DNA of 64,000 nucleotides from Salinibaculum litoreum (GTDB lineage: Archaea; Halobacteriota; Halobacteria; Halobacteriales; Haloarculaceae). The position numbers were made by a program, and so were the translations under genes. Below are positions 33,936 to 56,464 of this stretch, piece after piece. How positions within the stretch are numbered: the first letter of the stretch is position 1; each line of letters begins with the position of its first letter. The stretch is taken from positions 372,001-436,000 of the forward strand of contig CP046866.1 of NCBI GenBank assembly GCA_009789175.1, read 5' to 3'. Below the pieces are notes generated by a model, which saw only the letters and a list, made by a program, of their open reading frames with translations, ran no database searches and was not told the origin of the DNA.

Positions 33936-33961
33936 TCGCTGGCCAATTTACAATTTTGATA

Positions 33962-38708: not shown

Positions 38709-38715
38709 TAATAGT

Positions 38716-39238: not shown

Positions 39239-39295
39239 GACGCCCTCTGCGGATTGTATCGCTGATTTCAGGGGATTTGGACGCCGTCTGGTGGT

Positions 39296-40111
39296 ATGGG
39301 ACGGCTCAGGAACCTTACACAGGCATTTCACGAGTTTGCCACGACCCACGTAGAAGAGTCAGACGTACCCGCCGTCGCCGACGGCGACGACGGGTACGAT
39401 AAGGCCACGAAGATCGCGCTACTCTTGCTCAAAGAGGAGGTCAACAAACCGCTCCGGCAGTTCGAAGACTACCTGAACGAGATGCCGGGAATCCTCGACG
39501 TGTTTGACCTTGAGGAATCGCCTGACTTCACGTCGTTCAGCGTGTGGGACGGTGAATTTCCGATGCAAGAGTTGCGCCGCCTGCTCCGCCGGTCAGCGGA
39601 GCAGGCGGGGCTGTCGGGAACGGCGTCGATTGACGCCAGCGGCTTCCAGCGCGATCAAGCCAGCTCACACTACCGCAATCGTGTCGGCTACTCGTTCAAT
39701 GCCATGAAGACGACGCTGCTCGTCGACACGGAGTCACTGGCCATCATGGACGCTCATTTCACGACGAAGAAAGCCTATGACGGCCATATTGGGCTGCAGG
39801 TCTTTCGGCGAAACGCCGAAGACCTGCAGGCACTGCTGGCGGACAAGATGTACTCATGGAGCGAACTCAGGGAAGCTTGTCGTGATGCATCAACGCGTCC
39901 AGTGATCAAACACTGCGAGCAAAACGCGCTCAAGAAAGCTCACAACGCTCGAATTGACGACGATGTCTACAATCAGCGGTCAATGAGCGAGACGGTGTTT
40001 GCGATGTTGAAGGACGACGGCGACGAGATCCGCTCCCGGAGTTGGCACGGCCAATTCCGGGAGCTCACGCGCAAGTGCATCGTACATAACCTAACGCAGG
40101 CGGCGAGTTAG
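39296..40111 (+). CDS. IS5-family (ISH1-like) transposase
   Basis: The 271-residue DDE transposase shows the first catalytic Asp in SIDASGFQRDQ, the second in ALLADKMYSW and the Glu in NQRSMSETVFAMLK. It ends with a basic KCIVHNLTQAAS helix. Length fits ISH1-type halobacterial transposases. Its stop lies in a strong stem-loop. The catalytic residues look intact, so the IS may be active. Confidence 0.88.
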   Translation: MGRLRNLTQAFHEFATTHVEESDVPAVADGDDGYDKATKIALLLLKEEVNKPLRQFEDYLNEMPGILDVFDLEESPDFTSFSVWDGEFPMQELRRLLRRSAEQAGLSGTASIDASGFQRDQASSHYRNRVGYSFNAMKTTLLVDTESLAIMDAHFTTKKAYDGHIGLQVFRRNAEDLQALLADKMYSWSELREACRDASTRPVIKHCEQNALKKAHNARIDDDVYNQRSMSETVFAMLKDDGDEIRSRSWHGQFRELTRKCIVHNLTQAAS

Positions 40112-40125
40112 AGCTCGCCGCCTGC
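40096..40125. terminator. Strong stem-loop at the transposase stop codon
   Basis: Arms GCAGGCGGCGAG (40096-40107) and CTCGCCGCCTGC (40114-40125) pair perfectly over 12 bp with a 6-nt loop TTAGAG that contains part of the stop codon. It could stop transcription entering or leaving the IS, or limit read-through translation. No T-tract follows, so a classical terminator is not proven. Confidence 0.45.
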
Positions 40126-40158
40126 TCCCCTTCTCTGGACGTATCGAGGAGAGGCGTC

Positions 40159-40306
40159 GCCATCGTCCACCTCATACTTCGTGCGGTATCTTGTGAAACT
40201 GATGTTTTGGTCACCGCACAAGGCGGCTGAAATTGAATCGTCCGGTCTAAGAATCCGCTGAGAGAGCACCGCTACTGGTGGAAAGCTGAATATCATTATT
40301 CCAATA
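40159..40306. other. Spacer between the IS and the ATPase fragment
   Basis: A minus-strand frame of 71 codons starts inside the ATPase fragment (40323) and runs into the IS end. It has no recognised family and overlaps both neighbours. It may be scrambled remnant sequence from the insertion event. Nothing else is seen here. Confidence 0.3.
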
Positions 40307-41116
40307 CTAGCGCCGTCTTCCATTCAACAGTGCATCTTGTAAAATAGAGACGCTACCGTAACAATTTTGCATAATCATGTATTTGAAATTTTCATCAAAT
40401 TCTATATTCATCAACTCTTCTCCCTCCTCAATCACTTGCTGTAGGTCATCTCTTTTCCATTCGTCAACGTCTACCGACAAGACTCGACCCCTTAGATCTC
40501 CATTGTACAATATCAAGCGGTTCTCCTCAAGCCAGACCCCTACGATAATGAACTTGACATCAGACTTTTCATGGAAGGCTTACAGGGCAATTGAAAAGTC
40601 TTTTTGAACTTCCTGCGGCAAATAATGAAAATCCTCTAGTGTAATGTGCTTATCAAATCCAATCTCAGACAGTGCTCGAATGATATCATTGACGTTCTCA
40701 GGGTCTAGCTCTAAAGTCTCCTCTTCTGTCTCTGTGGTCTCGGTTTCTGAAACCTCACTTCCGATATTTATTACTTTGCTAATCCCTGCTTTTATTTTCT
40801 GTGTTCCGGATACTGTTGTTGTCTCAGTTGCAGTTACTGTAAAGCCAGCCTCCTTCAAAATCGTTGTATGTATGTCGGCAATATCCCACTTGTTGCTACA
40901 CTGAATGACAACTTGGTCCTCTTCGTCTATGTGCTTTTTTCTCAAGCAGGTTTTCCCTTGTTTTGACCCACCAAATATCACCAAGTGCTTATCTCTGTTT
41001 AGATAAGAATTCAGCTTATCATCAACATAACTTCGTTCAACGTAGTTTTCTGGAATGTCGCCAGTTATATCATATACTTCTTCGACTAGTTTGCCTTCAC
41101 GACTCATAGAATCCAT
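40307..41116 (-). pseudogene. N-terminal fragment of an AT-rich P-loop ATPase gene with a nonsense codon
   Basis: The frame starts near 41116 (MDSMSREGKL) or 41107. It holds a Walker A GGSKQGKT (around residue 50) and a Walker B-like ITLEDFHYLP, then an in-frame TAA at 40580-40582 where a Lys codon is expected (reading SIAL-stop-AFHEKSD). It resumes in the same frame with EENRLILYNGDLRGRV and GSVSILQDALLNG and ends at TAG 40307. The part beyond is separated by an IS from a likely C-terminal fragment at 38716-39238. It looks like a decayed STAND/AAA-type ATPase, possibly a defence gene; that role is a guess. Confidence 0.6.
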
Positions 41117-41256
41117 ATACAAGACAAGTTACAAAAACCTAATTGATTTCGGGAAGAGTAACGCGACATCAAATCTTGTCTGTGGGTAATTCATCACCAA
41201 CGATACTTGTCTGAATATCCACTTGAGAACTGAATCTATGTTGGGAGCAATGGTAC

Positions 41257-41385
41257 CTATTCGTCAGCGGATTCTTGAAGCAACTCCTGAATAACGTCGT
41301 CGAAGGTATCGCCTGGCCCCTTTTGCCGGTTTAGCTGCTTCCAGGTCTCCTCGCTCACCTGAATCGTCGTCGTCTCGTCATCCAT
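41257..41385 (-). CDS. Small antitoxin-like ribbon-helix-helix protein
   Basis: The 42-residue protein reads DDETTTIQVSEETWKQLNRQ followed by GPGDTFDDVIQELL. It is a VapB-like (DUF7557-like) ribbon-helix-helix or DNA-binding antitoxin fold. It starts at ATG 41385; the longer frame adds non-family residues. There is no toxin gene beside it. It is divergent from the integrase and may regulate it through the palindrome at 41472. Confidence 0.6.
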   Translation of the reverse strand: MDDETTTIQVSEETWKQLNRQKGPGDTFDDVIQELLQESADE

Positions 41386-41471
41386 ACAACCGGTATGAGT
41401 ACGAGTAGGTATAATCTTGGCTCCTTTATCATTTCTATAATAATACAGAACCATAGTATTATAACACTTCG

Positions 41472-41485
41472 CTATAGTACTATAG
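41472..41485. promoter_or_regulatory. 14-bp palindrome between the RHH gene and integrase
   Basis: CTATAGTACTATAG is a perfect inverted repeat in the divergent spacer, with a related half-site ATAGTATTATA at 41453-41463. It is a plausible operator for the adjacent RHH protein or for excision control. It is also AT-rich enough to overlap promoter elements. Confidence 0.45.
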
Positions 41486-41629
41486 CCGATGGCGTGGCAG
41501 AGAAAACAGAAATTATTGCTGCTAATCCGGGGCCGTATCGTGTATCGGTCGTATATGGGCGCTTCCTCCGAGTGGTAGAATGTCATGATGACCGCCCTCT
41601 TTGAGCGACGGACTACGAGGTGAGCGTCG

Positions 41630-42649
41630 ATGGGTAACGACCTCGAATCGCTGGCCCCGCAGGAAGCAGTCGACCTCTACATGGACCACCGGGAGCCGGA
41701 ACTGAGCGAAAAGACGCTTGAGAACCACCGCTACCGGCTTAAGATGTTCGTCGAGTGGTGCGAGCGTGAGAGCATCTACAACCTGAATGACCTCAGTGGT
41801 CGTGACCTCCATCGGTACCGCGTCTGGCGACACAAGGACATCAACACGGTGACGCTCCGTGGCCAGCTCGCTACGCTGCGCGTGTTCCTTGAGTTCTGCG
41901 CCGACATCGACGGTGTAGAACCTGGACTGCGTGAGAAGGTGAAGCTGCCCAATGTCGAACCGGACGAAGAAGCCCGCGACCGGCTGCTCGACGACGACCG
42001 CGCCGCCAAGCTCCTGCAGTACCTGGAGACATACCGGCGCGCCAGTCGAGAACACGTCATTATCGCCGTGCTGTGGCACACTGGTATCCGGCTCGGTAGC
42101 CTCCGTGCGCTTGACCTGGATGACTACGAGAGTGACGGCGACGAATCCAGCATCTGGATTCGGCACCGACCGGAGAGCGGAACACCGCTGAAGAACGGCA
42201 ACGCCGCTGAACGGCCTATCTCACTGGACGAGAAGTACGCTGACATCCTCGACGACTACATTCGGCTTCACCGCCCGAACGTTGAGGACGACTACGGTCG
42301 CCGGCCACTGCTTGCCAGTGAACAGGGTCGTCTCAGCGACACACAGATTCGCGCCGACGTGTATCAGGTTACCCAGCCCTGCGTGCTCAGTGACTGCCCA
42401 CACGACCGCGACATCGAGTCCTGCGAGTACCGCTCGTATGGTCACTACTCGGAGTGCCCATCGAGTCTGTCGCCACACTCGATACGGCGAGGTTCGCTGA
42501 CCCACCAGCTCCGTGAAGGCGTTCCCGAGGAGATTGTCAGCGGCCGCTGTAACGTATCCCGAGACGTGCTGGACCAGCACTACGACCGGCGAACTGACCG
42601 CGAGAAGATGGAACAACGCCGAGAGTTCATCGAGAAATTAGACCTGTAA
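41630..42649 (+). CDS. Tyrosine integrase of the element (SNJ2-type candidate)
   Basis: The 339-residue protein has an N-terminal SAM-like domain and a C-terminal catalytic domain. Arg lies in WHTGIRLGSLRA (near 152), HxxR in HSIRRGSLTH (near 283) and Tyr in VLDQHYDRRT (near 317), with a Cys-rich insertion (CVLSDCPHDRDIESCEY) typical of haloarchaeal pleolipovirus/plasmid integrases. It lies 71 bases from the tRNA-Ala 3' end and points toward it, as expected for a site-specific integrase using that tRNA as attB. Confidence 0.9.
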   Translation: MGNDLESLAPQEAVDLYMDHREPELSEKTLENHRYRLKMFVEWCERESIYNLNDLSGRDLHRYRVWRHKDINTVTLRGQLATLRVFLEFCADIDGVEPGLREKVKLPNVEPDEEARDRLLDDDRAAKLLQYLETYRRASREHVIIAVLWHTGIRLGSLRALDLDDYESDGDESSIWIRHRPESGTPLKNGNAAERPISLDEKYADILDDYIRLHRPNVEDDYGRRPLLASEQGRLSDTQIRADVYQVTQPCVLSDCPHDRDIESCEYRSYGHYSECPSSLSPHSIRRGSLTHQLREGVPEEIVSGRCNVSRDVLDQHYDRRTDREKMEQRREFIEKLDL

Positions 42650-42720
42650 CGCATGAACGCACATTACGACCTCAGAGTCGAGAAGAACAGTGGAAACGCA
42701 AGCAGAGAGTTTAATTCGTA

Positions 42721-42733
42721 TGGACTCGCCGGG
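42721..42733 (+). repeat. Right attachment site (attR) within the tRNA-Ala 3' end
   Basis: TGGACTCGCCGGG here is the tRNA-Ala 3' end and matches the copy at 35973-35985 exactly over 13 bp, in the same orientation. This is the expected product of integrase-mediated recombination at a tRNA 3' end. Confidence 0.75.
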
Positions 42734-42792
42734 ATTTGAACCCGGGGCCTTCCCCGTGCCAGGGGGATGATCTACCGCTGATCTACGAGCCC
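42721..42792 (-). tRNA. tRNA-Ala (anticodon GGC)
   Basis: Read on the minus strand, the cloverleaf is complete. The acceptor GGGCTCG pairs with CGAGTCC (one G-U pair) with discriminator A. There is a D arm, an anticodon stem TCCCC/GGGGA with loop CTGGCAC (anticodon GGC), and a T arm CCGGG/CCCGG with loop TTCAAAT. CCA is not encoded. Its 3' end is the attachment site of the integrated element, which leaves the gene intact. Confidence 0.97.
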
Positions 42793-42884: not shown

Positions 42885-42971
42885 TCGGCCACAAGGACTA
42901 ATATTCTCGAAATACGGCCACAAGCTCTAATACCGTTGAAAATCGGCCACAAACGCTAATACCATCGAGCG
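42885..42971. repeat. Three 29-bp imperfect tandem repeats upstream of pilin cassette A
   Basis: Copies begin at 42885, 42914 and 42943, each exactly 29 bases apart, sharing (T/A)CGGCCACAA then CTAATA. They lie 98-184 bases before the first gene of pilin cassette A and may be regulator-binding sites or TATA-like repeats. The spacing and lack of unique spacers argue against CRISPR. Confidence 0.6.
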
Positions 42972-43068: not shown

Positions 43069-43614
43069 ATGAGGGGACAGACGACACTCGACTTCGCTAT
43101 CGGTATTAGTGTCTTCCTTGCCGTCATCCTGTTCGTGTTTACTTTCGTCCCGGGGCTGCTGGAACCCTTTGCCCTCAGCGGTGAGGCTGACACCGTCCGG
43201 GCCGACCAGCTGGCCGACCGGCTCGCCGAGGGTGAACTCGGCAATCCGCAGGAACCATACGTGCTGGACCGTCACTGTACGGTTTCGTTTTTCGACAACT
43301 CCAGTTCCTCTCCCGACCGCTGTCGATACGAGGGCGATAACTGGCGAGACAGGCTGGATGTTCCTGACACGACGCGGGTCAACGTCACGCTCGAGCGAAA
43401 CGTTACGGTCGGGGCCGCAACCCCGGACACGCTATGCTGGGACGAATCGAACGACGATATCGTCACACAGTCCAACTGTAGCCCCTCTTCCGGTGATACG
43501 CGGCTTACTATCGGAGCGTCTCTGGATGACGCCGGTGACGATTCGACGATAACGGCCAGGCGCGTCGTCACAATGTACGGGGAAGACATGACTCTGAAGG
43601 TGGTCGTATGGTAG
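43069..43614 (+). CDS. Minor pilin-like protein, cassette A gene 1 (DUF7287-like)
   Basis: The 181-residue protein begins MRGQTTLDFAIGISVFLAVI, a short basic leader and hydrophobic segment like an archaeal class III (prepilin) signal, followed by an extracellular domain with paired cysteines. It is the first of five genes (43069-46291) with short overlaps. Its counterpart in cassette B is 53869-54297. Minor pilins of this type are thought to prime or cap type IV pilus assembly; the exact role here is unknown. Confidence 0.72.
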   Translation: MRGQTTLDFAIGISVFLAVILFVFTFVPGLLEPFALSGEADTVRADQLADRLAEGELGNPQEPYVLDRHCTVSFFDNSSSSPDRCRYEGDNWRDRLDVPDTTRVNVTLERNVTVGAATPDTLCWDESNDDIVTQSNCSPSSGDTRLTIGASLDDAGDDSTITARRVVTMYGEDMTLKVVVW

Positions 43615-44210
43615 GACAGCGCGGACAAGCGCACACGCTGGAAGCCGTCGTTGCAGCGCTGATGTTGCTGGTCAGCATCGGCATCGCACTCCAGATGACG
43701 GCCGTGACTCCGCTGTCAGCGAGTACGTCGAGCCAACACTTGGAAAACCAACTCGAAAAGACCGCCAATGGAGTCCTCGCCAGCAATGCCGAAACGGGCG
43801 GACTGAAAGACGCCGTCCTATACTGGAACACGAGTTCGGAGTCGTTTCACAACACCGCGGGTGACCGGGCATACTACACCGAGAAGCCGCCGGAGGACCT
43901 CTCGCTCGGCCGGACACTCAATCGGACGCTCGACGCACGAAACGTCGCGTACAACGTTTACATCTACTACAAGACCGAGGATGGGGACCGGGACCGCCAG
44001 CGGATGATATACCGGGGGGAGCCAAGCGAACACGCTGTGACAGCAACACACACGGTCACCGTAGTTGGTAGCGACCGCCTCCGCAAGGAACACCCCCAAA
44101 ACACTGGTGGACGTGTCGACCAGACGGACTTTTACCTCGATAACAGTACGTCGGGGACGGACGGCCTGTACAACCAGGTACGCGTGGAGGTGGTCGCGTG
44201 GCGAATCTAG
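43608..44210 (+). CDS. Minor pilin-like protein, cassette A gene 2 (DUF7288-like)
   Basis: The 200-residue protein has the segment RGQAHTLEAVVAALMLLVSIGI at the N-terminus and a soluble domain containing YNVYIYYKTEDGD. The cassette B counterpart (53273-53866) has the matching RGQAYTLEGLVAAVL and YNVFLVYQTGET. The start overlaps gene 1 by seven bases. The family match is recalled, not searched. Confidence 0.72.
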   Translation: MVGQRGQAHTLEAVVAALMLLVSIGIALQMTAVTPLSASTSSQHLENQLEKTANGVLASNAETGGLKDAVLYWNTSSESFHNTAGDRAYYTEKPPEDLSLGRTLNRTLDARNVAYNVYIYYKTEDGDRDRQRMIYRGEPSEHAVTATHTVTVVGSDRLRKEHPQNTGGRVDQTDFYLDNSTSGTDGLYNQVRVEVVAWRI

Positions 44211-45097
44211 GCGAGCGGGGACAGATAATCCTCGTCGCGGCGTTTGCCCTGGGGGTCATCTTCATCGCGCTTGCAGTCGTCGTCAACACGGCAATCTTCA
44301 CGGAGAACCTCGCGACCCGGACGGAGGCGACCGACGGGTCCGACGCGCTCGAGTCCAGACACGAGGTCGAACAGAGCGTCGGGGAGATACTGGTGACGGT
44401 CAACGAGGATGCGGACAACCCGTCTGTGGCCTTCAGGGAGAACGTCTCGGAACTGGACAACCAGAGCAGCTACTGGGAAGCGGGCAGCGGTCGCATCGTC
44501 TCGACTGAGGTGGTCGGTACGACGAACGGGCGGCGCTTCTATCAAGACACGGACGGGACCTTCGACGACGGCGGTGACGACTGGATAGTCGCCGAGTCCG
44601 TCGACCAGTCCCGGGCCATTCGGCTGAACATCACCAACGACCTCGCACTATCGGGCTCCGAGGACAGTGCGTTTAGACTCTCCCTGAATGATACCAGCGA
44701 CGACTACTGGAATATGACGGTCTATCGGTCGGGTGGGAATGTCGTCGTCTCCGTCGAGGAGGACGGTGGCAACACGGCGCAGTGCTCTACAACGACGGCC
44801 GAGCCACGCATCGACGTGACTGCGGGGACACTCGGTGGTGAACCGTGTACGGCCCTGCGCATCGACGGTGGGACCGAGATGCAGTATGGGACTGGTCTGG
44901 ACGACCGGTACGACATCGTCTTCTACAATGGAACTCAGATGGAGGGCACGTATGAGGGGGTCACCCAAGGCGGAGTGGTAAGCGTGAGTGCAAACGATGA
45001 GACAGCCCTCTACAGTAGCACGGTCAGGTACGTCTACGAGACGAGCGCGGTCAGATACGAGACGGACATCCGGGTCGCACCGGGGGAGCCAGCATGA
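44198..45097 (+). CDS. Minor pilin-like protein, cassette A gene 3 (DUF7261-like)
   Basis: The 299-residue protein begins at GTG 44198 with ERGQIILVAAFALGVIFIAL, then a large extracellular domain rich in Asn/Thr/Ser. It overlaps the end of gene 2 by 13 bases. Its paralogue in cassette B is 52314-53279, with RAQLLLVGSVLIAIAIVATV. Likely an extracellular pseudopilin. Confidence 0.7.
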   Translation: MANLGERGQIILVAAFALGVIFIALAVVVNTAIFTENLATRTEATDGSDALESRHEVEQSVGEILVTVNEDADNPSVAFRENVSELDNQSSYWEAGSGRIVSTEVVGTTNGRRFYQDTDGTFDDGGDDWIVAESVDQSRAIRLNITNDLALSGSEDSAFRLSLNDTSDDYWNMTVYRSGGNVVVSVEEDGGNTAQCSTTTAEPRIDVTAGTLGGEPCTALRIDGGTEMQYGTGLDDRYDIVFYNGTQMEGTYEGVTQGGVVSVSANDETALYSSTVRYVYETSAVRYETDIRVAPGEPA

Positions 45098-45558
45098 GCG
45101 GACGCGTCGGGCCCTTCCCCGGCCACCGTGGCGTCTCTTCGACGCTGAGTTACGTCCTTTCGCTGGCGATAGCGACGCTGCTCATCACGGGACTCATCAC
45201 AGCGAGTACCGGATTCGTTACAACACAGCGCGAGGTGGTCGTCCGCGAGGAACTGGAGGTCATCGGCCAGCACCTCGCCTCGAACGTCGAGCAAGCCGAC
45301 CGCATGGCCAACGCCAGCGAGGGGTCGGCGACGGTCTACGTCAATCAGACCTTTCCCGACGCTGCCGCACGCTCGCAGTACGACGTGCGACTGAGCGAGT
45401 CTCGGGACCAACTCGTCTTAAACAGTACCTCGCCGGAGCGCACCGTTCGCATCAATATCTCCACGACAGCGGAGCTTCGGGAATCCACTGCAGACGGCGG
45501 GACGATAACCGTCCGGTACGACGATTCGAGCGACGAGCTGGTGATTGGCAATGCGTAA
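45094..45558 (+). CDS. Minor pilin-like protein, cassette A gene 4 (DUF7266-like)
   Basis: The 154-residue protein has HRGVSSTLSYVLSLAIATLL, a prepilin-type segment, and a short beta-rich domain (YDVRLSESRDQLVLNSTS). It overlaps gene 3 by four bases and gene 5 by eight. The cassette B equivalent is 51832-52317, with RGASIAITHALTLAITAIL. Confidence 0.72.
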   Translation: MSGRVGPFPGHRGVSSTLSYVLSLAIATLLITGLITASTGFVTTQREVVVREELEVIGQHLASNVEQADRMANASEGSATVYVNQTFPDAAARSQYDVRLSESRDQLVLNSTSPERTVRINISTTAELRESTADGGTITVRYDDSSDELVIGNA

Positions 45559-46291
45559 CCGGGCCGTCAGCGAAGTGCTGGGCTATGCCCTCGTGTTCAG
45601 TCTGGTCGTCGTCATCGTCGGTATCATTTCTGTCTCGGGGCTGACGGGTTATCAGGATGTCCAGAACTTCGAACGTCAGTCAAACGCCCAGAAAGCCTAC
45701 GATGTGATGCACAACAACATCGAGGACATCTACTACAGGGGGGCACCTAGTCGGGCGACGGAACTCGACCTCGGGGAGACAACGATTACGCTTGCAGAGC
45801 CAGTCACAATCAACGTCACAGCGGGGTCGGGAAGCGAGAGGGTCTCCACGAACGTGACGACCCGTCCAATCGTACAGGACCTGGGTGAGGGCAACAAACT
45901 CGTCTACGAGGCAGGGGCCGTCTTCCAGACGACTCGGGACGGGGGGCTCCTCCGTCGTGAGCCACCGATGACGCTGCGCCCGGACAGCGGTCACGTCATC
46001 GTCCCGAACATCAGCCAGCAAGGGCGGCGCGGCATCGGAAACGGTGTCGTCCGGGTTCGTGCCCGCTCGCTCTCTGACACTATCCGCTACGAAAACCGGT
46101 CGGGCTCCGGTGATGATTATCTCAACATCACCGTCCACTCACCGCGTGCCGGCCTCTGGGCCACGCATCTCGAAGACAGTTCCACGTTCGACAGTTGCAC
46201 AGTCGGCGATTCAGTGGTGACCTGCGAGACTGACGACCTCGACCGACTGTACGTCGTTCGCTCTGACCTCGGCATCTATTTCGACCGCTGA
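45551..46291 (+). CDS. Minor pilin-like protein, cassette A gene 5 (DUF7289-like)
   Basis: The 246-residue protein begins MRNRAVSEVLGYALVFSLVV, followed by an extracellular domain ending with a CETDDLDRLYVVRS strand. ATG 45551 is chosen over a TTG at 45545. Its partner in cassette B is 50984-51841 (RGLSDVIAFVLTFSVIILSV). It is the last gene of cassette A, 200 bases before the giant vWA gene. Confidence 0.72.
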   Translation: MRNRAVSEVLGYALVFSLVVVIVGIISVSGLTGYQDVQNFERQSNAQKAYDVMHNNIEDIYYRGAPSRATELDLGETTITLAEPVTINVTAGSGSERVSTNVTTRPIVQDLGEGNKLVYEAGAVFQTTRDGGLLRREPPMTLRPDSGHVIVPNISQQGRRGIGNGVVRVRARSLSDTIRYENRSGSGDDYLNITVHSPRAGLWATHLEDSSTFDSCTVGDSVVTCETDDLDRLYVVRSDLGIYFDR

Positions 46292-46456: not shown

Positions 46457-46464
46457 TTTTATAC
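46457..46464 (+). promoter_or_regulatory. TATA-like promoter of the giant vWA gene
   Basis: TTTTATAC lies 28-35 bases before ATG 46492, with good spacing for archaeal initiation. A separate promoter means the gene can be expressed without cassette A. Confidence 0.5.
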
Positions 46465-46491: not shown

Positions 46492-49400
46492 ATGGTATGG
46501 GAGTGGGACCTATCAGATGAACGGGGTGTATCTGATATCGTCGGGGTGGCGATTCTCATCTCGTTGAGTATCGTCGGTTCGCTGGCTATCGTGGCTATTG
46601 GCGGCATCGCGTTGAACACCCTGACAGAACAGGCACAGAACGATTTGGCCGACGATTCGATTCGCAACGTCGACGCCCGGCTCTCCGCGCTAGCGGACAG
46701 TTCCGTGGACGCGACTACCGAGTTCACTATCCCCGAGGGAACTGGCGACCAAATCGAGGCCAACGCGAGCGCCGGTCGCGTCTACGTCAGCGCAACGACC
46801 AACGCGACGTATGCGAATCAGACCGTCGAGTATGCTGATACGGGCGATTCCTCCTGTACGGTCCAACAGGGGCTGGGGACTATCGTTCACGAGCGTGACA
46901 ACGGCAACGCGATCGTCTATCAGGGCGGTGGACTCTGGAAACAGACACCTGCGGGCACGCAAGTCGAGTCCGAACCCAAGTTCGACTACGATGGGAGCGC
47001 CATCCGGTTCGGGTTCATCAACATCACCGGACTCCGGAGTGTCTCGGAAGGCGAGACGCTGACCGCGGAGAAACTGGCACGCGAGTCCGAGACGGCCACA
47101 GCCGAGATGACGCGTGAACTCGAGGATTGCTGGCAGATGGACGGTGCAAGCGGGACCGTCCCTGTCAGTATCAACGTGACCATCAGCAGCGAGTACTACG
47201 AGGGGTGGGCACGCTACGCGAAACAGGACATGTCCGCACAGCCAGCGGATATCACCTGGGACAACGCCAGCAACAACGTCACGCTACACTTCGGGAACGT
47301 CGGAGGCAAAAGCGGTGCGTTCTCCGAGGCCGACGAGTTCCCTGGGCCGGTCATCTACTCCGGACTTTCCGACTATGCACAGTACAACGACAAACTGAGT
47401 CCGGAAAGCGCCGGCGCGGCCGCATTCAGTGCAGACCTGAGCGAAATCAACGGCAACAAGGTCTCCGTTGCCTACTACGATGCCGATGCGAGCGCGTGGG
47501 CATACAACAAAGGCTCGGAGACAGACACCACCACCTGGGAGTACAACGGTAAATCCGGGGGCCCAGACCCGAGTGACAATCCGCTCATTGCCAACCCCAG
47601 TGGCACAGTCTACAATTTCGACGAGGGCGTTCCCATCTGTGTCATCAAGGGCAAGGGCTTCCCCGGTCAACTGAACAGCGGGAACTGCAAGGCCGATATG
47701 GTCGGCACCAACGGCAGTGCCGTTTCCGGTTCCAACCAGTCCATCTACGAGATTGCAAGCGTTACCGTTGTGAACACCTCCAATACGGTCTCGGAAGGCG
47801 AACAACTGAGCGCGGAGGTGACCATCGAAAACACCGGAACGAAGGATGGTGAAAAGTACGTCGCACTGTTCGATGATAACAAGAACCTTGTCGACTACGA
47901 GAAACTCAACATCGATGGTGGCGAGTCTCCACCGGCCTCGAAGACGGCCACGCTGACCTGGCAGACGGGGACCGGTGATAGCCCGGCCGGGACCGACGAG
48001 CGGACGCTCATCCTGGCGACGGCAGACGACAACGTGACCAGAGATGTCTACGTCCAGGAAGCCGACGTGGACACGCCGGAGTTCGATGTGGATATCGACC
48101 AGAGCAGTAGCTCCGATACCGTCGAGGTCGACGAGACGGTTCAGGTGACAGCGACTATCGACAACGTCGGTGACGGCGACGGAAGCCAGTACGTCACGCT
48201 GACCGACCACAACGGCAACCTCGTGGACGTGACTCGGGTGACGAACCTCGGCGACAGCGACCCTGCACAGACGGTCACACTATCGTACACGCCTGTCGCC
48301 GCCGGGAGCGGTGACGTAACGGTCTCGACCGAAGACCACAGTGACACCCACAGCGTCACAGTCACCGACTCCTCCTCATCTGGGGGCGTTCGCTACATCG
48401 GCCCGGCAAGCAACAGTGATGCGCTCAACTACCTCCTCCAGCAGGGCTACAGTGGCCCGGGCGGCAACGACACCGCCGGTAACAGCGGGAATCTGAAGGA
48501 TACCGGCTATATCGACAACGGATACGTCATCGAGCCAAAAGACGACTCCACCTACGACGTGTATCTGGCTGATACGGACGCCGGCACGTGGGTCGAAGTC
48601 GTGCAGGGAACAGATAGTCACCGGTACGTCAAGGGGTCAAACGTCGCCGGCGGTGACAGTGGAACGATGTACGATACGCTCGCGGCCGACTCGAACGCTA
48701 TCGTCTGTATTGCCGATACGGGAGCGGACATCAACGGGACGGACCCCTCGACCAGTGACTGCGGCGCACTTTACAACAAAAGCGGCGGCCTGGAGTATAA
48801 AAAAGGCGAGAACGTCCTCGAAGTTGAGGGCACCCAGGGGAACCTCTCGGTGCTGACCACTCAGATCGGTGAGCGCGTCGAGGAACGCGAGGATGTCCGC
48901 CAGCCACTCGACGTGATGTTCGTCCTCGACGAGTCCGGGTCGATGGGTGACTACGATTTCACCGACACCGCATACCCAGGGAACACATACAGCCCACCGG
49001 AGAATTACTTCTACGTCCTCGAAACAGGCGAAGTGTACGATTCCGAGGACAGCTTTAGCGTCAGCACCGAGACTGAAGTTGATGTTTACACCGGCTCGGA
49101 CCCGCTCGGGTTCCGCATCGACGCGACGAAATCCTTCGTCGGGAGCCTCAACGACACCAAAGACGAGGCCGGTGCAGTGCAGTTCGATTACGATGCTGAC
49201 GTGAAACAACCACTCACGGACGACCTCGACGATGTCAACTCCTCCGTCGCACAGGATGTCGGCGGCAGCACGTACCTAGGGAATGCAATCGACGAGGGCC
49301 GGACACAACTCACTGCAGCCTCGAACCCGGACCGGCAGGTGATGGTCGTACTGAGCGACGGTAAGGCCGACGACGACCCCGTCGCTGCCGCCAACCGGGC

Positions 49401-50841
49401 TGCCGACGAGAACATCACTATCTACACCGTGGGTCTCGGCGACGACGTCAACGAGGCGGAACTCAAGCAGGCGGCAAACGTCACTGGCGGGAAATACTAC
49501 GCTGTCGACCAGGCCGATCAACTGAAGCAGATCTTCGAGCAGATTGCCACGGACGCGAAACAGGAGTCTATCATCCAGCGCAGTCGGACGGAAGTGGCCG
49601 CGGTCAACGACGCCGGCAAGGAGTGGTCTGTCTCGCTGGACGGTGACTCGAATCTGAACGACCCGACGCAGTACAACACCAGCAGTTCCACTGCCCTCGA
49701 AGAACAACTCTCCAGTGGCCTGAACAACTCGGACCTGTCCTTCGAGGTGACGGTCTATGGCTGTAACAACTACTCGGCAATCGACGGCGTCACGTCGACG
49801 GTCGGCGGCGAGACGTACACGCACGCGACGTGTACCGAGTACGACACCACCGACTCGACGACCATCAACAACAGCAACGTCCACGACCACGTCATAATCA
49901 CTGCCAACAACAGCAACTACCTGTCGAACATCTCCGCGACCGGCGACTGGCAGCCCGACCCCGAGGACGTGGCGTCGGTGGACAAAGACGACCTCGGTGA
50001 GGGTGAGGCACTCATCGGCCTGGAGGTCGCCCACGAGAACCAGACCGGCTACGTCCTGATGCACTTCGAGGTGCCGACCAACGAGACGGTCCGTGACAAC
50101 TGGGATGGGGATGTCGGCGACGGTGATACCCCTGACGAGACCGAGTTTACGGTCAGTACCGATAGCGTCTCTCCTGACCCCGTCACGCGTGGTGATACCG
50201 TCACTGTCGATGCCACCGTGACCAACACCGGTGATACGGGAACTGAGGCCATCGTGCTCAAAAACGACGACGGCATCGTCGTCGACAGCACGACTCGGAA
50301 CCTGAGCAACGGCGAGACGGACCTCAGTGTGACCCTGACGTGGGATACCACTGGTGCCCGGACGGGTGACAATAGCCTCACTGTTGCAGTCGAGAACGAC
50401 AGTGCCGCCGAGACCGTCACTGTCGAAGCTGACGACCCGTTCTTCGAAGTCGATAGTGTCTCCGGTGAGACCGTCACAGAAGGCGAGACGATGGAGGTCT
50501 CGGGCACAATAACGAACACCGGCCAGGACGACGGCCGGGCACAGGTCGTCCTGGAAGTGAAAGACGGCGGCGAGTGGTACACGGTCGACGCGATGGAGAC
50601 ATCCGCCACGTTGACCGCGGGCGACCCCGGACAGTCGGAGACGGTCACCCTGTCCTGGGAGACTACCATCGGCGACGCAGGCAATCCTCGTCAGGTACGG
50701 CTTCAGACCGCACACGACGCCGATACCGCCTCCCCGACGGTTGACCCCGCTGACACCGGCGGTTCCAACCTCGGGACGAGCGTCGGTGACCCGAGTTCCG
50801 AACCGATAAACATCGATGTCTCCCGGATAGAAATCGAATAG
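46492..50841 (+). CDS. Giant pilin-anchored surface adhesin with CARDB and vWA domains
   Basis: The 1449-residue protein starts with a prepilin-type segment (ERGVSDIVGVAILISLSIVG) and then a pilin-like domain (about 45-330). Two CARDB-like beta domains follow (about 420-520 and 520-640), then a von Willebrand A domain with MIDAS DESGSMG (near 812) and DGKADDDP (about 805-1015). Two more CARDB-like domains (about 1215-1310 and 1310-1410) and a short basic end complete it. It is probably exported and anchored like a pilin, with the vWA domain binding a partner through a metal ion. It lies between two pilin cassettes that converge on it. Confidence 0.8.
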   Translation: MVWEWDLSDERGVSDIVGVAILISLSIVGSLAIVAIGGIALNTLTEQAQNDLADDSIRNVDARLSALADSSVDATTEFTIPEGTGDQIEANASAGRVYVSATTNATYANQTVEYADTGDSSCTVQQGLGTIVHERDNGNAIVYQGGGLWKQTPAGTQVESEPKFDYDGSAIRFGFINITGLRSVSEGETLTAEKLARESETATAEMTRELEDCWQMDGASGTVPVSINVTISSEYYEGWARYAKQDMSAQPADITWDNASNNVTLHFGNVGGKSGAFSEADEFPGPVIYSGLSDYAQYNDKLSPESAGAAAFSADLSEINGNKVSVAYYDADASAWAYNKGSETDTTTWEYNGKSGGPDPSDNPLIANPSGTVYNFDEGVPICVIKGKGFPGQLNSGNCKADMVGTNGSAVSGSNQSIYEIASVTVVNTSNTVSEGEQLSAEVTIENTGTKDGEKYVALFDDNKNLVDYEKLNIDGGESPPASKTATLTWQTGTGDSPAGTDERTLILATADDNVTRDVYVQEADVDTPEFDVDIDQSSSSDTVEVDETVQVTATIDNVGDGDGSQYVTLTDHNGNLVDVTRVTNLGDSDPAQTVTLSYTPVAAGSGDVTVSTEDHSDTHSVTVTDSSSSGGVRYIGPASNSDALNYLLQQGYSGPGGNDTAGNSGNLKDTGYIDNGYVIEPKDDSTYDVYLADTDAGTWVEVVQGTDSHRYVKGSNVAGGDSGTMYDTLAADSNAIVCIADTGADINGTDPSTSDCGALYNKSGGLEYKKGENVLEVEGTQGNLSVLTTQIGERVEEREDVRQPLDVMFVLDESGSMGDYDFTDTAYPGNTYSPPENYFYVLETGEVYDSEDSFSVSTETEVDVYTGSDPLGFRIDATKSFVGSLNDTKDEAGAVQFDYDADVKQPLTDDLDDVNSSVAQDVGGSTYLGNAIDEGRTQLTAASNPDRQVMVVLSDGKADDDPVAAANRAADENITIYTVGLGDDVNEAELKQAANVTGGKYYAVDQADQLKQIFEQIATDAKQESIIQRSRTEVAAVNDAGKEWSVSLDGDSNLNDPTQYNTSSSTALEEQLSSGLNNSDLSFEVTVYGCNNYSAIDGVTSTVGGETYTHATCTEYDTTDSTTINNSNVHDHVIITANNSNYLSNISATGDWQPDPEDVASVDKDDLGEGEALIGLEVAHENQTGYVLMHFEVPTNETVRDNWDGDVGDGDTPDETEFTVSTDSVSPDPVTRGDTVTVDATVTNTGDTGTEAIVLKNDDGIVVDSTTRNLSNGETDLSVTLTWDTTGARTGDNSLTVAVENDSAAETVTVEADDPFFEVDSVSGETVTEGETMEVSGTITNTGQDDGRAQVVLEVKDGGEWYTVDAMETSATLTAGDPGQSETVTLSWETTIGDAGNPRQVRLQTAHDADTASPTVDPADTGGSNLGTSVGDPSSEPINIDVSRIEIE

Positions 50842-50983: not shown

Positions 50984-51841
50984 CTACTCGTCGACAGTGA
51001 CGTCGATGGTGACCAGCCGGACGACGACCGTCTCGAGGTTGCCGCTTCCGCACTTGTAGCCGTAGTCGTCGTCGGCAGCCGACTCCCAGCCGGTGTCGCC
51101 GTCGTCGAGGTAGGCCCTCCAGCCGTCGGTGTTGGTAGTCTCAGAGAGATCCAGAAAGACCGTCTTCCCGGTCCCGTCGCTTCTGTTGACGTAGATGACC
51201 TTGGATTCGGTTTTGTTGAGCGTCCCAGACAGCTGGACGGACTGCTCGCTGTCCTCGACCGGCGCATCCGCTCCGGGGGCGTCCTCGGGGCCGACACTGA
51301 ATCCGGGTGACCCCGACCCGATGCTGAGAGAGCCGTTCAGAGCGACGAGTGTCACAACCGCTATCCCGGTATCGGGAGCACACCGCATCGTCGGCCGGTA
51401 CCGCATGCGTGACTCTTCGTCTGCCGCGATGTCCTGACGGAACACGGCTCCGTTCTCGTAGCTGATGTTGACCGCACCGAAGGATTTCTCCAGTCGATGC
51501 TGGAGAGTGTTCACCGTGACTGACCGGGTCCAGTTGCCGCTGCTGTTTGTCGTCTCGTTTATCCGAAGTCGCAGGCTGGCGTCGGCCAGGTGGACGTGTC
51601 CGTCTTGCAGTGCGATTTCACCGGCACGCATGCGGTCGCCCTGCTGACTCACGTCGTCGAGGTTCTTCGCGAAGGAGACCATGCTGCGTTCGGCGCTGTT
51701 GACCTGCTCGCGGTCGCGCACCTCGGTGAGCTGTGAGACACCCAGTACCGACACTGCCGACACTGAGAGGATGATGACCGAGAAGGTCAACACGAAGGCG
51801 ATGACATCGGAGAGTCCGCGCTCCTCGAACATCACGGACAC
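50984..51841 (-). CDS. Minor pilin-like protein, cassette B gene 5 (DUF7289-like)
   Basis: The 285-residue protein starts MSVMFEERGLSDVIAFVLTFSV, a prepilin-type segment, followed by an Asn/Ser/Thr-rich extracellular domain ending DDDYGYKCGSGNLETVV. It is longer than its cassette A partner (246 residues). It is the last gene of the pilB operon and overlaps gene 4 by ten bases. Confidence 0.72.
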   Translation of the reverse strand: MSVMFEERGLSDVIAFVLTFSVIILSVSAVSVLGVSQLTEVRDREQVNSAERSMVSFAKNLDDVSQQGDRMRAGEIALQDGHVHLADASLRLRINETTNSSGNWTRSVTVNTLQHRLEKSFGAVNISYENGAVFRQDIAADEESRMRYRPTMRCAPDTGIAVVTLVALNGSLSIGSGSPGFSVGPEDAPGADAPVEDSEQSVQLSGTLNKTESKVIYVNRSDGTGKTVFLDLSETTNTDGWRAYLDDGDTGWESAADDDYGYKCGSGNLETVVVRLVTIDVTVDE

Positions 51842-52317
51842 CCCCGAAGCGCGATGCGTTGGTTGCCGCCCCCGTCAGCACACAGCCTCACAGTCGGGTT
51901 CTCCCCACGCGTGCGTGAGTTGACCATTGGTGTGTCAGTCCGGACCGGAACTGTGACCGACAGTCCCAGCTCCGAGGCGTTGAGATACAGCGTGGCGTTT
52001 GTCCTGTCGCTGCTGTTGGGGACCAGAGCCATAGAGTAGGGCTCGCCCGCAATCTGCTCGGGGTAGGACGCCTCGAACGTGGCGTTGACCTGCTCGCCGG
52101 TCTCGTTGACCCGGTCTGCCCTGTCGATGACCGAGGCCACGTCCCCACCCACGTCTTTGAGCTGTGACTGGGCGACTTTGTCCTGCTGGTTCGTCAGGTA
52201 GTTCCCTGTCGTCACGAGTAGTGTCGTGATGAGAATTGCCGTGATGGCGAGTGTGAGCGCGTGCGTGATTGCTATCGATGCGCCGCGGTCGTCTGTCTGG
52301 AGGGCGTTGCGTCTCAT
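51832..52317 (-). CDS. Minor pilin-like protein, cassette B gene 4 (DUF7266-like)
   Basis: The 161-residue protein has DRGASIAITHALTLAITAIL and an extracellular domain ending with a Cys pair (LCADGGGNQRIALRGCP). It overlaps gene 3 by four bases. It matches the cassette A protein at 45094-45558 in segment pattern and length. Confidence 0.72.
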   Translation of the reverse strand: MRRNALQTDDRGASIAITHALTLAITAILITTLLVTTGNYLTNQQDKVAQSQLKDVGGDVASVIDRADRVNETGEQVNATFEASYPEQIAGEPYSMALVPNSSDRTNATLYLNASELGLSVTVPVRTDTPMVNSRTRGENPTVRLCADGGGNQRIALRGCP

Positions 52318-53279
52318 GGTTCGGTCCTGTTGTACAGCCGGAACGTCGATTCGTAGGTTACGTCAGCGCTCACGTAGGTGACGGCGAAGGCGGGGTTGAC
52401 GATGGTGTCTGATGAGTCCTCCCACTTGGGGGCCTCACTGAAGCTCGGAGTGCCACCGGTCCCAGTAATCGTGTAATTCCCCGAGACAGTATCCCCGCGG
52501 ATGAAATGAACCGCGCGCGAGTTCACGTCGGGTGCCACCCGAAAGTCCCCACAGCGATGTGCGAGGCCGCTCTCGGTGTGTAACTCCACGTGCCCTCGAT
52601 TCTTCGTGATTTCGGTGCGGATTTCGTACGAGTCGAGACTCCCGCTCACCCCGCAGATAGCCCGCTTCGGCCCGGTAGACCGATTGACCGTCACGCGGGT
52701 GTCGCTGACGTTGAGATACCACGCTGCTGTCGAAGCCCCCGTTCCGTTTATCTTCAGTGAAAACGGCGTACCACCCGGGTCGTACATCGTCATCCGCATC
52801 CGGACGATATCCGGGCCACCGTCGGCGACGGTCCAGTTGCTCTCGGCCGGACTCGCCGCGCTGTGATAGGTCGTATTGTCGTTCTGGTAGACCGCCCACC
52901 CCTTCTCGGACTGTTCGGGGAGATACTCCACGTCGAGTGTCCCGCTCCGTCTCTCGTTGCGTACATCCGCGTAGGCCGGACCGAGTGTGGCACTCACGTT
53001 CTCCTGGAAGGTGTCGTTTATATCGACGGCCGGGTGTGGCGAGTCTGTGATAAACGGCGTCCGCATCCCGCCTTTTCTGTCGACTTCCAGAAACAGTCCA
53101 TCGAGAGCGACCCGGAGTTCGTCATGCATCCGGTCGATTTGCTCCGTGTTCTGTTCGATATCGTCGGTCTGGAGGTTCGCGGGCGTGTAGATGGAGTTCA
53201 GCAGAACGACTGTCGCCACGATGGCGATGGCTATGAGGACGCTCCCGACGAGCAACAACTGGGCGCGCTCTCTCACCAT
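52314..53279 (-). CDS. Minor pilin-like protein, cassette B gene 3 (DUF7261-like)
   Basis: The 321-residue protein has MVRERAQLLLVGSVLIAIAI at the N-terminus and a large beta-rich extracellular domain with two Cys. It overlaps both neighbours. It pairs with the cassette A gene at 44198-45097. Confidence 0.72.
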   Translation of the reverse strand: MVRERAQLLLVGSVLIAIAIVATVVLLNSIYTPANLQTDDIEQNTEQIDRMHDELRVALDGLFLEVDRKGGMRTPFITDSPHPAVDINDTFQENVSATLGPAYADVRNERRSGTLDVEYLPEQSEKGWAVYQNDNTTYHSAASPAESNWTVADGGPDIVRMRMTMYDPGGTPFSLKINGTGASTAAWYLNVSDTRVTVNRSTGPKRAICGVSGSLDSYEIRTEITKNRGHVELHTESGLAHRCGDFRVAPDVNSRAVHFIRGDTVSGNYTITGTGGTPSFSEAPKWEDSSDTIVNPAFAVTYVSADVTYESTFRLYNRTEP

Positions 53280-53866
53280 ACTTCCACCCGCACCTCCACC
53301 ACGTTGTACAGTTGTGAGTCGGGATGTTCGTCCGCGAGGTAGACGGCCCCCGTATCGTCACGCTCGCTCAGGTTCTCACCAGCCGGTCGACACCCGTCAC
53401 TCGTCGTCTCGTGGGCTGGCGTCCCGTCGTACAGAGCCACCGTCCGGGAGACCGTGACGACGCCGTTCCGCGGCTCCTGCTCGGTTTCCGGATACACCAG
53501 TTTCTCCGTCGTCGTCTCCCCGGTCTGATAGACGAGGAAGACGTTGTAGCTGTAGCCGCGGTTCCCAAACGTCTCGTTCAACATCGGCCCGAGTGCTGTG
53601 GCACTGTCCCCGCCCGGGGCGTAGGCAGCCGTCGCCGGGGCTGCTCCGTCCAGACAGGTCACTGCCCGTTTGAGTGTGCCGTTTTCTGCGGCCACAGCGA
53701 GGGTGTCCTCTCCCTGAGTGCGTAGCGAATCGAGCATGTCGTCGTCGGGGCCGCTTGTCCAGGGGGCCACGTCGACCGCCTGCATCCCGAGGATGACCGA
53801 CGACGCGATGAGCACCGCCGCGACGAGTCCTTCCAGCGTGTACGCCTGGCCTCGGTCGTCGGACAT
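53273..53866 (-). CDS. Minor pilin-like protein, cassette B gene 2 (DUF7288-like)
   Basis: The 197-residue protein starts MSDDRGQAYTLEGLVAAVLI and has an extracellular domain with YNVFLVYQTGETTTEKLVY. The start at 53866 is chosen over the longer frame, which reads into gene 1. It matches the cassette A gene at 43608-44210. Confidence 0.72.
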   Translation of the reverse strand: MSDDRGQAYTLEGLVAAVLIASSVILGMQAVDVAPWTSGPDDDMLDSLRTQGEDTLAVAAENGTLKRAVTCLDGAAPATAAYAPGGDSATALGPMLNETFGNRGYSYNVFLVYQTGETTTEKLVYPETEQEPRNGVVTVSRTVALYDGTPAHETTSDGCRPAGENLSERDDTGAVYLADEHPDSQLYNVVEVRVEVW

Positions 53867-53868
53867 GA

Positions 53869-54297
53869 TTACCACACCCTCACCACCAGCCGGCACACCG
53901 GTGTACAGTCTCCGGAGGTGTCGTTCGCGAGCGATATCACGCGGACCGACGTGGCTGCTGGCTGTCTGTTGTCGGCGTAGTTACTGCCCGAGCCATCGAG
54001 TATCTCCGTCCCGTCCTGTACTGTCACGTTTACTGTCCCCGTCTCCCCTGGCGGATTGACTGTCTGGATGTTCTGTCGCAGTTGTTCCCCATCGACAGTA
54101 TTCGAACTCCCCTGTACAGCACTTGCCGTCAGGAGTTCGTCGGCGATTCTGTCGGCAGTTGCCTCATTATCGGCATCGACTGGGTCCTGGAAGGGTTCGT
54201 AGATGCCCGGGACGAACGCGAACACGCCTGTCAGCGTCAGGAGGACGAGTGTCATCCCCACGACGTAGTCGAACTCCGTCTGCGCGCGGCTAGTCAT
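53869..54297 (-). CDS. Minor pilin-like protein, cassette B gene 1 (DUF7287-like)
   Basis: The 142-residue protein begins MTSRAQTEFDYVVGMTLVLL, a prepilin-type segment, and carries a Cys pair (SGDCTPVCRL) at the end. It follows the PilC gene by ten bases, so it is translated in the same operon. It pairs with the cassette A gene at 43069-43614. Confidence 0.74.
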   Translation of the reverse strand: MTSRAQTEFDYVVGMTLVLLTLTGVFAFVPGIYEPFQDPVDADNEATADRIADELLTASAVQGSSNTVDGEQLRQNIQTVNPPGETGTVNVTVQDGTEILDGSGSNYADNRQPAATSVRVISLANDTSGDCTPVCRLVVRVW

Positions 54298-54307
54298 GGT
54301 ACCGTTG

Positions 54308-56464
54308 TCAGTCGGCTCCTCCGTCGGAAGCCGACACCCCGCACCCATCTGTCTGCCTGTCCCCAGTCCAGTCCCACACTGACCTGCCAACTGACCCGAC
54401 GGCCAGCAACAGGAGCGCCTCCTCGCCGCCACCGCCGGCGGTCATCTGCTGGACGCCAATCCAGACGACCAGCGCCAGCGTCGCCAGCCCAACAGCGTAT
54501 TTCACCCCGGAGATGAGCTCCACGTTCCGGATGTAACCGGCGATAAACGAGGAGATGATAGCCTGCAGTGTCACGGCGTGGAAAAACAGCATCGACATCC
54601 GCTCTTCGGAGAGCGACCCGCCGCTGCCTCCTCCCGGTCCCTGTCCGCCGCTGGTACTCAACTCCAGCCCGCCGATGACGTCGATAAACTGCACGCGAAG
54701 CAACGCCATCACGCCCAGCAGCGTGAGGTAGGTCATGATGATGATGACCGTCTGCATCCGGGTCCGGGACTTTCGCTCGCGGTCGATGTCGTCCTGGTTC
54801 TCGGAGGCCTGTGCGGCCGTCGAGAGCACGTCCTGAATCTGGCTGGAGGTCTCCTGGGCCTCGCTGATGAGCTTGACCGTCCGCGCCAGCCGCGGAATGT
54901 GGTATTTGTTGTTGAACTCCCGGAGAGCGTCTTTCAGGTTGGTCCCGTAGTTGACCTTCGCGTGCATCGTCTCGAACTCGTCGGCCAGTTTCCCCGAGGA
55001 CGTCTCGGAGACGACTTTCACCGACTCCAGAAGCGTCATCCCCGTATCGTTGGCGCTGGCCAGTTTGCGCAGGTTCTCCGAGAGGTTGCCAAGCACCCCC
55101 CGCCGCGAGCGGACGTTCCACTCGTAGAATATCCCCAGCGGCAGGAGGTTCATATACAGCGGTACGTAGACCCACATCACCGTCCCGTAGACGACGTTGT
55201 TCTCCATCGCCTCGATAGAGAGGGGCAGATTGTCGGTCAGAAACGCCCCGAGCAACACGAGTACCGTCAGCGGCACTGTCACGAGCAACACCATCGTCGG
55301 GTGGTCCCGGAAGAAGCGATGCGGTGCCCGCAGAATCGCCATCAGTTCGTGGGTCCCCTCCCGGCGTTTGATGCGGTCGAAGACGCTCCGGTCGCCGGTG
55401 TATTGCTCGACAAGACCGGGATTGAACACGCCGATGCCCTCGTCGACCCGGAACTCCTCCTCTTTGCTGTCCGGGCGGAGATATCCATCACCGATTTCGT
55501 CCTGCGTGACCGTCGAGACGAGCACCAGGAAGCCGACCCCGATAAGCGGAATCAGCCCGTACACCGTCCCCATCAGGAGCATCTCCTGGTTACCACCCTG
55601 CATCAGGTCCATGATGACGAGGATGATGATGAGAAGCAGGGGAAACAGCGACAGCGTCATGTACATCTCGCCGAACAGTTCCAGGGTGTCAAGCAGCTTT
55701 TTTTGTTCCTGTTTGGCCGTCCGCATGTGCTTGTCTTTCTGGTCTTCGAGGAAGTCCGTCATGTCGCCCCCGGAGTTGACGATAGAGAGCATGTCCGTCA
55801 GAAACTGCGAGAGTTCGTCGCTGGGGGTTTCCAGTGCCTGATTCCGGATAGCAGTCCGGTAGTCCGTATCGAAATACTCCGTCTCCAAGACGATAGACTG
55901 GAACTCCTTGGCGACTTCCCCGTATGTGTCGTCGGCTTTGGCCATCGCTTGCAGAATCTCTAGCTGGTTCATCCCACCCACAGACAGCGCGTACATGAAC
56001 GAAATCGAGTCAGCGAGCAAGACGTTAATCTCGCGTTCGCGGGCGCTGGACCGGAAATAGGGTATCGAGACGAGCGATCCAAACCCAATGGCAAAGCCGA
56101 TCGAGCCGAATACCAGGCCCGAAAAGAAGACGATAGCCGGCGTCTTCAGCGCCGTAATGTAATCGGGCAGATTGAACGTCACCAGTCCTTCCGGGACGCC
56201 GAAAAACTGGACGAACAGCCAGCCGACGAACATCCCGAGAAACCACAGCGCGAGCCCGGCGATGACGCCCACCGCGAGCGCACGCGAGAGGAACATCTCG
56301 ACGTTGTCGGCCATCCTGGCCTCCGCGAGCTTGTCCTCGATACCTTTGACGAAGTCACCGTCCTCGTTGAACAGCCACTCGTAGAGCGGGTAGAACGCGT
56401 CACCGAGGGCTGACTCGCCGGCATTCCCCAGCTGTTGCTTGTCACCTCGCGTATCGAGGCTCAT
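54308..56464 (-). CDS. pilC: Type IV pilus membrane platform protein (PilC/TadC-type)
   Basis: The 718-residue protein has two repeated T2SSF/ArlJ-like halves, each with a soluble helical part and membrane helices. Examples are IGFAIGFGSLVSIPYFRSSA then ALSVGGMNQLEILQAMAKADD, and LASANDTGMTLLESVKVVSE. The C-terminal membrane group is followed by a low-complexity tail. It anchors the assembly ATPase and passes prepilins into the fibre. The ATG overlaps the end of the ATPase gene by four bases, so the two are co-translated. Confidence 0.87.
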   Translation of the reverse strand: MSLDTRGDKQQLGNAGESALGDAFYPLYEWLFNEDGDFVKGIEDKLAEARMADNVEMFLSRALAVGVIAGLALWFLGMFVGWLFVQFFGVPEGLVTFNLPDYITALKTPAIVFFSGLVFGSIGFAIGFGSLVSIPYFRSSAREREINVLLADSISFMYALSVGGMNQLEILQAMAKADDTYGEVAKEFQSIVLETEYFDTDYRTAIRNQALETPSDELSQFLTDMLSIVNSGGDMTDFLEDQKDKHMRTAKQEQKKLLDTLELFGEMYMTLSLFPLLLIIILVIMDLMQGGNQEMLLMGTVYGLIPLIGVGFLVLVSTVTQDEIGDGYLRPDSKEEEFRVDEGIGVFNPGLVEQYTGDRSVFDRIKRREGTHELMAILRAPHRFFRDHPTMVLLVTVPLTVLVLLGAFLTDNLPLSIEAMENNVVYGTVMWVYVPLYMNLLPLGIFYEWNVRSRRGVLGNLSENLRKLASANDTGMTLLESVKVVSETSSGKLADEFETMHAKVNYGTNLKDALREFNNKYHIPRLARTVKLISEAQETSSQIQDVLSTAAQASENQDDIDRERKSRTRMQTVIIIMTYLTLLGVMALLRVQFIDVIGGLELSTSGGQGPGGGSGGSLSEERMSMLFFHAVTLQAIISSFIAGYIRNVELISGVKYAVGLATLALVVWIGVQQMTAGGGGEEALLLLAVGSVGRSVWDWTGDRQTDGCGVSASDGGAD

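Follow-up and report, generated by a model that had tools for sequence, protein, structure and literature searches.

A probable giant DUF7289 minor pilin of haloarchaea that would display a vWA and CARDB arm at the pilus tip

We analysed a 64,000-nucleotide stretch of the Salinibaculum litoreum genome (contig CP046866.1, positions 372,001 to 436,000; hereafter the window) and interpret the 1449-residue protein encoded in it as a giant modular minor pilin that displays an arm of vWA and CARDB domains, probably at the tip of a pilus, a reading to which we give a probability of about two in three. Judging from the profile match, a complete minor-pilin module of the DUF7289 type (PF23960; 49.4 bits against a curated cut-off of 27, which places the protein in DUF7289) takes up its first ~260 residues. 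Two paralogous prepilin cassettes of five genes each (DUF7287-7288-7261-7266-7289) flank the gene, and a pilB-pilC operon, encoded on the other strand, lies 3.5 kb downstream (Table 1). The 1449-residue open reading frame first reported from the letters alone is real, with an ATG start and a GC content by codon position (0.59/0.45/0.76) similar to that of the neighbouring genes. Since the gap of 200 bp between it and the small DUF7289 gene of cassette A contains a TATA-like element ahead of the ATG, the gene likely has a leaderless promoter of its own.

Table 1. Features of the giant pilin gene and its surroundings (positions in the window)
Feature	Position	Strand	Evidence
Cassette A DUF7287 prepilin-like	43069-43614	+	PF23958 2.3e-43
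Cassette A DUF7288 prepilin-like	43608-44210	+	PF23959 3.6e-60
Cassette A DUF7261 prepilin-like	44198-45097	+	PF23922 1.3e-5, slightly below cut-off
Cassette A DUF7266 prepilin-like	45094-45558	+	PF23928 2e-25
Cassette A small DUF7289 pilin	45545-46291	+	PF23960 8.3e-54
TATA-like element, ~28-35 bp upstream of giant pilin ATG	46457-46464	+	read by eye
Giant modular pilin gene	46492-50841	+	ATG start, 1449 aa ORF
Leader peptide, residues 1-12, predicted cut R11-G12/V13	46492-46527	+	conservation in alignment
DUF7289 pilin module, residues 11-259	46522-47268	+	PF23960 5.5e-13; 1.5e-13 scanned alone
Long pilin helix, residues 13-68	46528-46695	+	AlphaFold model; only hydrophobic segment
CARDB units 1-2, residues 421-628	47752-48375	+	Pfam
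vWA domain, residues about 806-1025	48907-49566	+	PF00092 6e-23; Foldseek
MIDAS DESGS, D813-S817	48928-48942	+	with T927 at 49270-49272, D956 at 49357-49359
vWA insertion after DxSxS, residues 820-868	48949-49095	+	alignment of relatives; length very variable
Domain X3 behind vWA, residues 1041-1227	49612-50172	+	phmmer
CARDB units 3-4, residues 1228-1430	50173-50781	+	Pfam
Conserved strand-like C-terminal tail (EPINIDVSRIEIE)	50797-50838	+	held-out motif tests
Cassette B small DUF7289 pilin	50984-51841	-	PF23960 2e-33
Cassette B DUF7266	51832-52317	-	2.4e-20
Cassette B DUF7261	52314-53279	-	6.6e-5, below cut-off
Cassette B DUF7288	53273-53896	-	1.2e-46
Cassette B DUF7287	53869-54297	-	3.9e-27
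PilC-type platform protein (T2SSF)	54308-56464	-	PF00482 1.4e-28
PilB-type assembly ATPase, 837 aa	56461-58974	-	PF00437 3.7e-32; ncbifam ArlI-like

The N-terminus reads ...DER-G/VSDIVGVAILISLSIVGSLAIVAIGG, where the slash marks the predicted cut, and matches the class III signal pattern; as in archaeal type IV pilins, a charged leader and a [RK][GAS] cut site are followed by ~20 hydrophobic residues. Residues 12-45 are moreover the sole strongly hydrophobic stretch of the protein, and the class III-type pilin N-terminus of the original prediction is thus borne out. When 19 long members of the family were aligned, the prepilin motif was present in 19/19, with R11 invariant and S14 nearly so, and nearly all long members whose N-terminus could be read carry a single strongly hydrophobic segment, which is N-terminal, and none at the C-terminus. 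The bacterial N_methyl motif (IPR012902) was missing from the giant pilin in a Pfam scan at E <= 0.1, and because this is the defining motif of the bacterial modular pilins we do not file the protein among them but in DUF7289. The protein has eight cysteines, spaced as four close pairs, together with 29 sequons for N-glycosylation, as suits an extracellular protein.

The Pfam VWA match spans residues 877-1017, and the MIDAS, claimed at the outset to be intact, is indeed complete, with D813, S815, S817, T927 and D956 at the standard places and D813, S817, T927 and D956 invariant among seven aligned relatives. Structure prediction had been suggested as a check on both the head and the vWA region. 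The vWA model, built from seven sequences, is weak overall (pLDDT 49), and its core matches vWA structures in Foldseek with a TM-score of 0.7-0.79 to the target, the matches including two pilus adhesins, Streptococcus sanguinis PilB (7ba2, 3e-8) and SpaC (6m3y). The AlphaFold model of the head (17 sequences, pLDDT 64) consists of the long helix with strands after it and matched no fold in the PDB. On its metal face, after the DxSxS strand and before the helix that follows, the vWA domain carries an insertion whose length ranges from ~8-9 residues in the relatives L109 and L115, through 49 in the window protein and ~170 in L112, to ~380 in L111, where it contains a PPC domain.

Of the rest of the body, the four CARDB domains named in the original prediction fared reasonably well: all four Ig-like units are recognisable and CARDB reaches 1.3e-11 in the whole-protein Pfam scan, though three are weak. 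Scanned singly, the units score 0.0017, 1.2e-5, 0.003 and 5e-4, and all but the second fall short of the Pfam cut-off. Domain X3 had no match in Pfam and is conserved in other members (phmmer 2.7e-6 to L081 and 6.4e-6 to L073). Compact members of ~710-770 aa consist of the head and the vWA domain, plus X3 in several, and compared with them the window protein additionally has the CARDB units and two regions of no recognised kind. The idea that X1 and X2 are repeats of a single domain was rejected, sequence comparison showing no relation.

Proximity to pilB, proposed earlier as a point to look for, was found here and in other genera. Seen from the strand of the giant gene, cassette B lies on the opposite strand, in the same operon as pilC and pilB; its DUF7287 frame opens at 54432, and we prefer, by inference, the start at MTSRAQ. 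The PilB has long extensions at both its N- and C-terminus and is not the PilB3-type ATPase of the genome, its PilB3_N and PilB3_C matches being only 0.012 and 1.4e-7; that ATPase is encoded elsewhere (L093:16744-18447; PilB3_N 2.6e-13, PilB3_C 1.6e-22). The genome holds seven T2SSE ATPases and one PibD-type peptidase. Directly after a second pilB-pilC pair it also encodes a long DUF7289-headed protein with a Big_1 domain (L093 8727-10526). In the window itself, two genes in tandem (31956-33803 and 33956-35809, + strand) encode proteins of 615 and 617 aa that join a DUF7289 head to a DUF7305 domain, and proteins of this type also adjoin cassettes in L050, L076 and L079.

Immediately ahead of cassette A, at 42886-42961, CGGCCACAANNNCTAATA occurs three times with 29-bp spacing, and a genome-wide search allowing one mismatch gave no further copy; the three are possibly regulator sites. 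The region before them (36960-42792) has a lower GC content and, besides genes for a Rep-like protein and a DDE transposase, carries one for a tyrosine recombinase (41630-42649) that adjoins a tRNA-Ala(GGC) gene at 42721-42792 (- strand); it is probably an integrated element. We considered phase variation through inverted repeats and this integrase, and rejected it: the inverted repeats between the cassettes are weak and of the kind expected of paralogues, and the position of the integrase beside the tRNA gene indicates an integrated element rather than pilin switching. tRNA-Ala(GGC) is also found near giants or cassettes in L050, L054, L076 and L079. Tyrosine recombinases related to that of the window lie immediately upstream of giant pilin genes, in the same orientation, in L051 (7928-8974), L073 (7426-8454) and L074 (10805-11854), and no tRNA was found in these three fetched stretches.

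In the reading we prefer, PibD would cut the giant prepilin after R11-G12, and the helix and globular part of its DUF7289 module would join a minor-pilin complex supplied by cassettes A and/or B, which the adjacent PilB-PilC pair would assemble with the giant pilin in it. The bulky body of ~1190 residues would be best accommodated at the filament tip, where the CARDB units would form a stalk and the vWA domain, its MIDAS occupied by Mg2+ or a comparable ion, would bind a ligand located on a surface, on another cell or in the matrix; the variable insertion beside the MIDAS would set the specificity. Of the originally proposed display of a metal-dependent adhesin by a pilus apparatus, the gene linkage, the complete MIDAS, the CARDB units and the pilin signal are supported, and we infer cleavage, incorporation, tip location, metal binding and adhesion. 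The protein could instead be a membrane-anchored surface adhesin whose pilin helix serves as export signal and anchor only and never enters a filament. So large a body is awkward in a filament subunit, and some long members lie away from any pil cluster within the fetched stretch, which counts against a pilus role. However, the cut site is conserved, a PibD homologue is encoded, the gene has a prepilin cassette on either side and pilB-pilC close by, and linkage of long members to pilB-pilC and/or five-prepilin cassettes recurs in many genera (giants flanked by two cassettes also occur in L037, L049, L054, L076 and L079), so that we consider mere anchoring unlikely.

A search for homologues in other Halobacteria, suggested with the original prediction, uncovered a haloarchaea-wide family. 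A contig search with the single protein as query gave no match, whereas an alignment-based query did, and the head profile matches 219 of 242 haloarchaeal genomes and 65 of 73 genera at E <= 1e-25, a count that takes in DUF7305-type and shorter members. Outside the order, in a small sample of 60 genomes of the phylum, no match has an open frame longer than 541 aa, and on these sequences the giants look like a haloarchaeal elaboration. From 57 mapped stretches we obtained 46 DUF7289-headed ORFs of more than 650 aa, with a vWA domain in 22, PilC nearby in 22 and a cassette nearby in 32, figures that are not prevalences because the stretches were chosen for long ORFs. Long members range from about 700 to 2300 aa (the largest relative has 2267), and Halovenus carboxidivorans, H. 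aranensis, H. salina and H. rubra are among the named species that carry one. The giant gene of L049 (9137-13062) appears to be split in the head region over two overlapping frames, by a frameshift or an assembly error.

DUF7289 domains fall into three sets: the small pilins of the operons, proteins of the DUF7305 type, and long modular members, whose heads group together in a single clade that excludes the small operon DUF7289 (43 rows, SH-aLRT 99). The small DUF7289 pilins of cassettes A and B belong to different groups of the tree; therefore the cassettes split before these genera did. Bodies on the same carrier vary (vWA, CARDB, PKD, PPC, TSP3, DUF7305), the distribution of the vWA domain over the head tree requires some six gains or losses, and since several close relatives lack it, it is not essential to the family. 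We rejected a recent exchange of vWA domains with non-pilin surface proteins, as a single clade of modular-pilin vWAs was not rejected (p-AU 0.256). Giants of 1535-2669 aa in L101 (5308-13317), L102 (5694-11846) and L103 (6893-11500) have no DUF7289 head, and their vWA domains are ~40% identical to that of the window protein.

This variability bears on two further alternatives. By analogy with what has been proposed for PilY1 and CpaL, the protein might be mainly a tip mechanosensor, in which a pull on the vWA domain signals surface contact and adhesion is secondary. The four cysteine pairs and the pilin-plus-vWA design shared with CpaL (PMC12607857) agree with this, but variable bodies and insertions resemble ligand selection more, and we think a chiefly sensory role quite improbable. 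A scaffold for filament priming or secretion, whose vWA domain would mediate subunit assembly instead of binding an outside ligand, suits a gene placed between two prepilin cassettes and the priming of assembly by bacterial minor pilins (PMC9934059), yet it is hardly credible for a highly variable body that often has no vWA domain, unlike a conserved assembly part.

The C-terminal tail raises a further question about the giant pilin. A motif trained on one clade recovered the others in three of four held-out tests (two directions with p from 1e-5 to 3e-7, another with 3e-3, the fourth not significant), and a regular expression derived post hoc from the giants matches 36 of these 43 proteins but 14 of 319 others. 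The Pfam matches of the heads usually end ~15-35 positions short of the end of the DUF7289 model, a truncation that would be explained if the last strand returned from the C-terminus of the protein. A PSSM of small DUF7289 C-termini scored the giants' tails above other proteins (p 0.007), and the reverse test was positive; as proof of a returning strand, however, the PSSM failed against internal stretches (p 0.28), and the strand stays hypothetical. It is tempting, though doubtful, to regard the whole body as a loop within the pilin domain whose C-terminal strand completes the pilin fold, which with the MIDAS-side insertion and the two ancient cassettes would amount to a haloarchaeal tip organelle. 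An adhesive arm of 400-2000 residues would then be clamped on the pilin at both ends, and such an organelle would be without bacterial counterpart.

The original prediction considered an archaeal vWA protein built directly on a pilin to be notable and named PilY1 and the pilus adhesins of Gram-positives as bacterial counterparts. As a principle this is not new, being known from S. sanguinis PilB and Caulobacter crescentus CpaL, and these two, not PilY1 or sortase pili, are the closest analogues. PilB (PMC8179133) likewise has a class III pilin N-terminus and a vWA domain whose MIDAS is flanked by protruding arms, and it has a role in adhesion such as we propose for the giant; however, it is about one third of the size, lacks CARDB units and has a canonical pilin part that is small, whereas the giant is archaeal, 1449 aa long and carried by DUF7289. 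CpaL, a Tad minor pilin (PMC12607857), also joins a pilin module to a vWA domain with MIDAS that is split by an insertion (beta-rich in CpaL), is predicted to lie at the tip and has a further parallel in that archaeal PilB/PilC are Tad-like, but it has 626 aa, no CARDB, another pilin family and a secretin-based envelope. The PilY1/PilC tip adhesins are large tip proteins with a vWA domain in some members; unlike the giant, which ends in CARDB plus the tail and had no Pfam match to a beta-propeller at its C-terminus, they are non-pilins defined by a C-terminal beta-propeller. More than 1,200 bacterial modular pilins are known, the most extreme multi-domain case cited having 860 residues (PMC8179133, in which the word archaea is absent), and function has been tested or modelled in the precedents (PMC8179133, PMC9934059, PMC12607857). 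By analogy of design, the giant may work like those with a vWA domain.

Among archaeal systems, arCOG02911, which we infer to be DUF7289, is a duplication-prone minor pilin of euryarchaeal type IV pili with variable length; the passages on it in PMC4858521 report ~250-550 aa and describe no vWA-bearing or giant members. According to the same paper, the ATPase of the Haloferax volcanii PilB4 locus has additional domains at its N- and C-terminus and is accompanied by pilins of its own, a description that the PilB locus of the window fits; there, Makarova et al. (2016) also assign a tentative position near the base to the minor pilins of one archaeal system, leaving several pilin roles open. In the open-access literature we found no paper naming DUF7289 or describing archaeal modular pilins, and no experimental work on archaeal pilus tips. 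With the giant, the known pilin-plus-vWA design gains an archaeal version of far greater size, and this suggests that bacteria and archaea came to the design from pilins that are unrelated to each other. Because their carrier stays the same while the effector modules differ, the DUF7289 giants offer a testable tip-adhesin candidate across haloarchaea, a family that probably equips the pilus ends with sticky modules that can be swapped.
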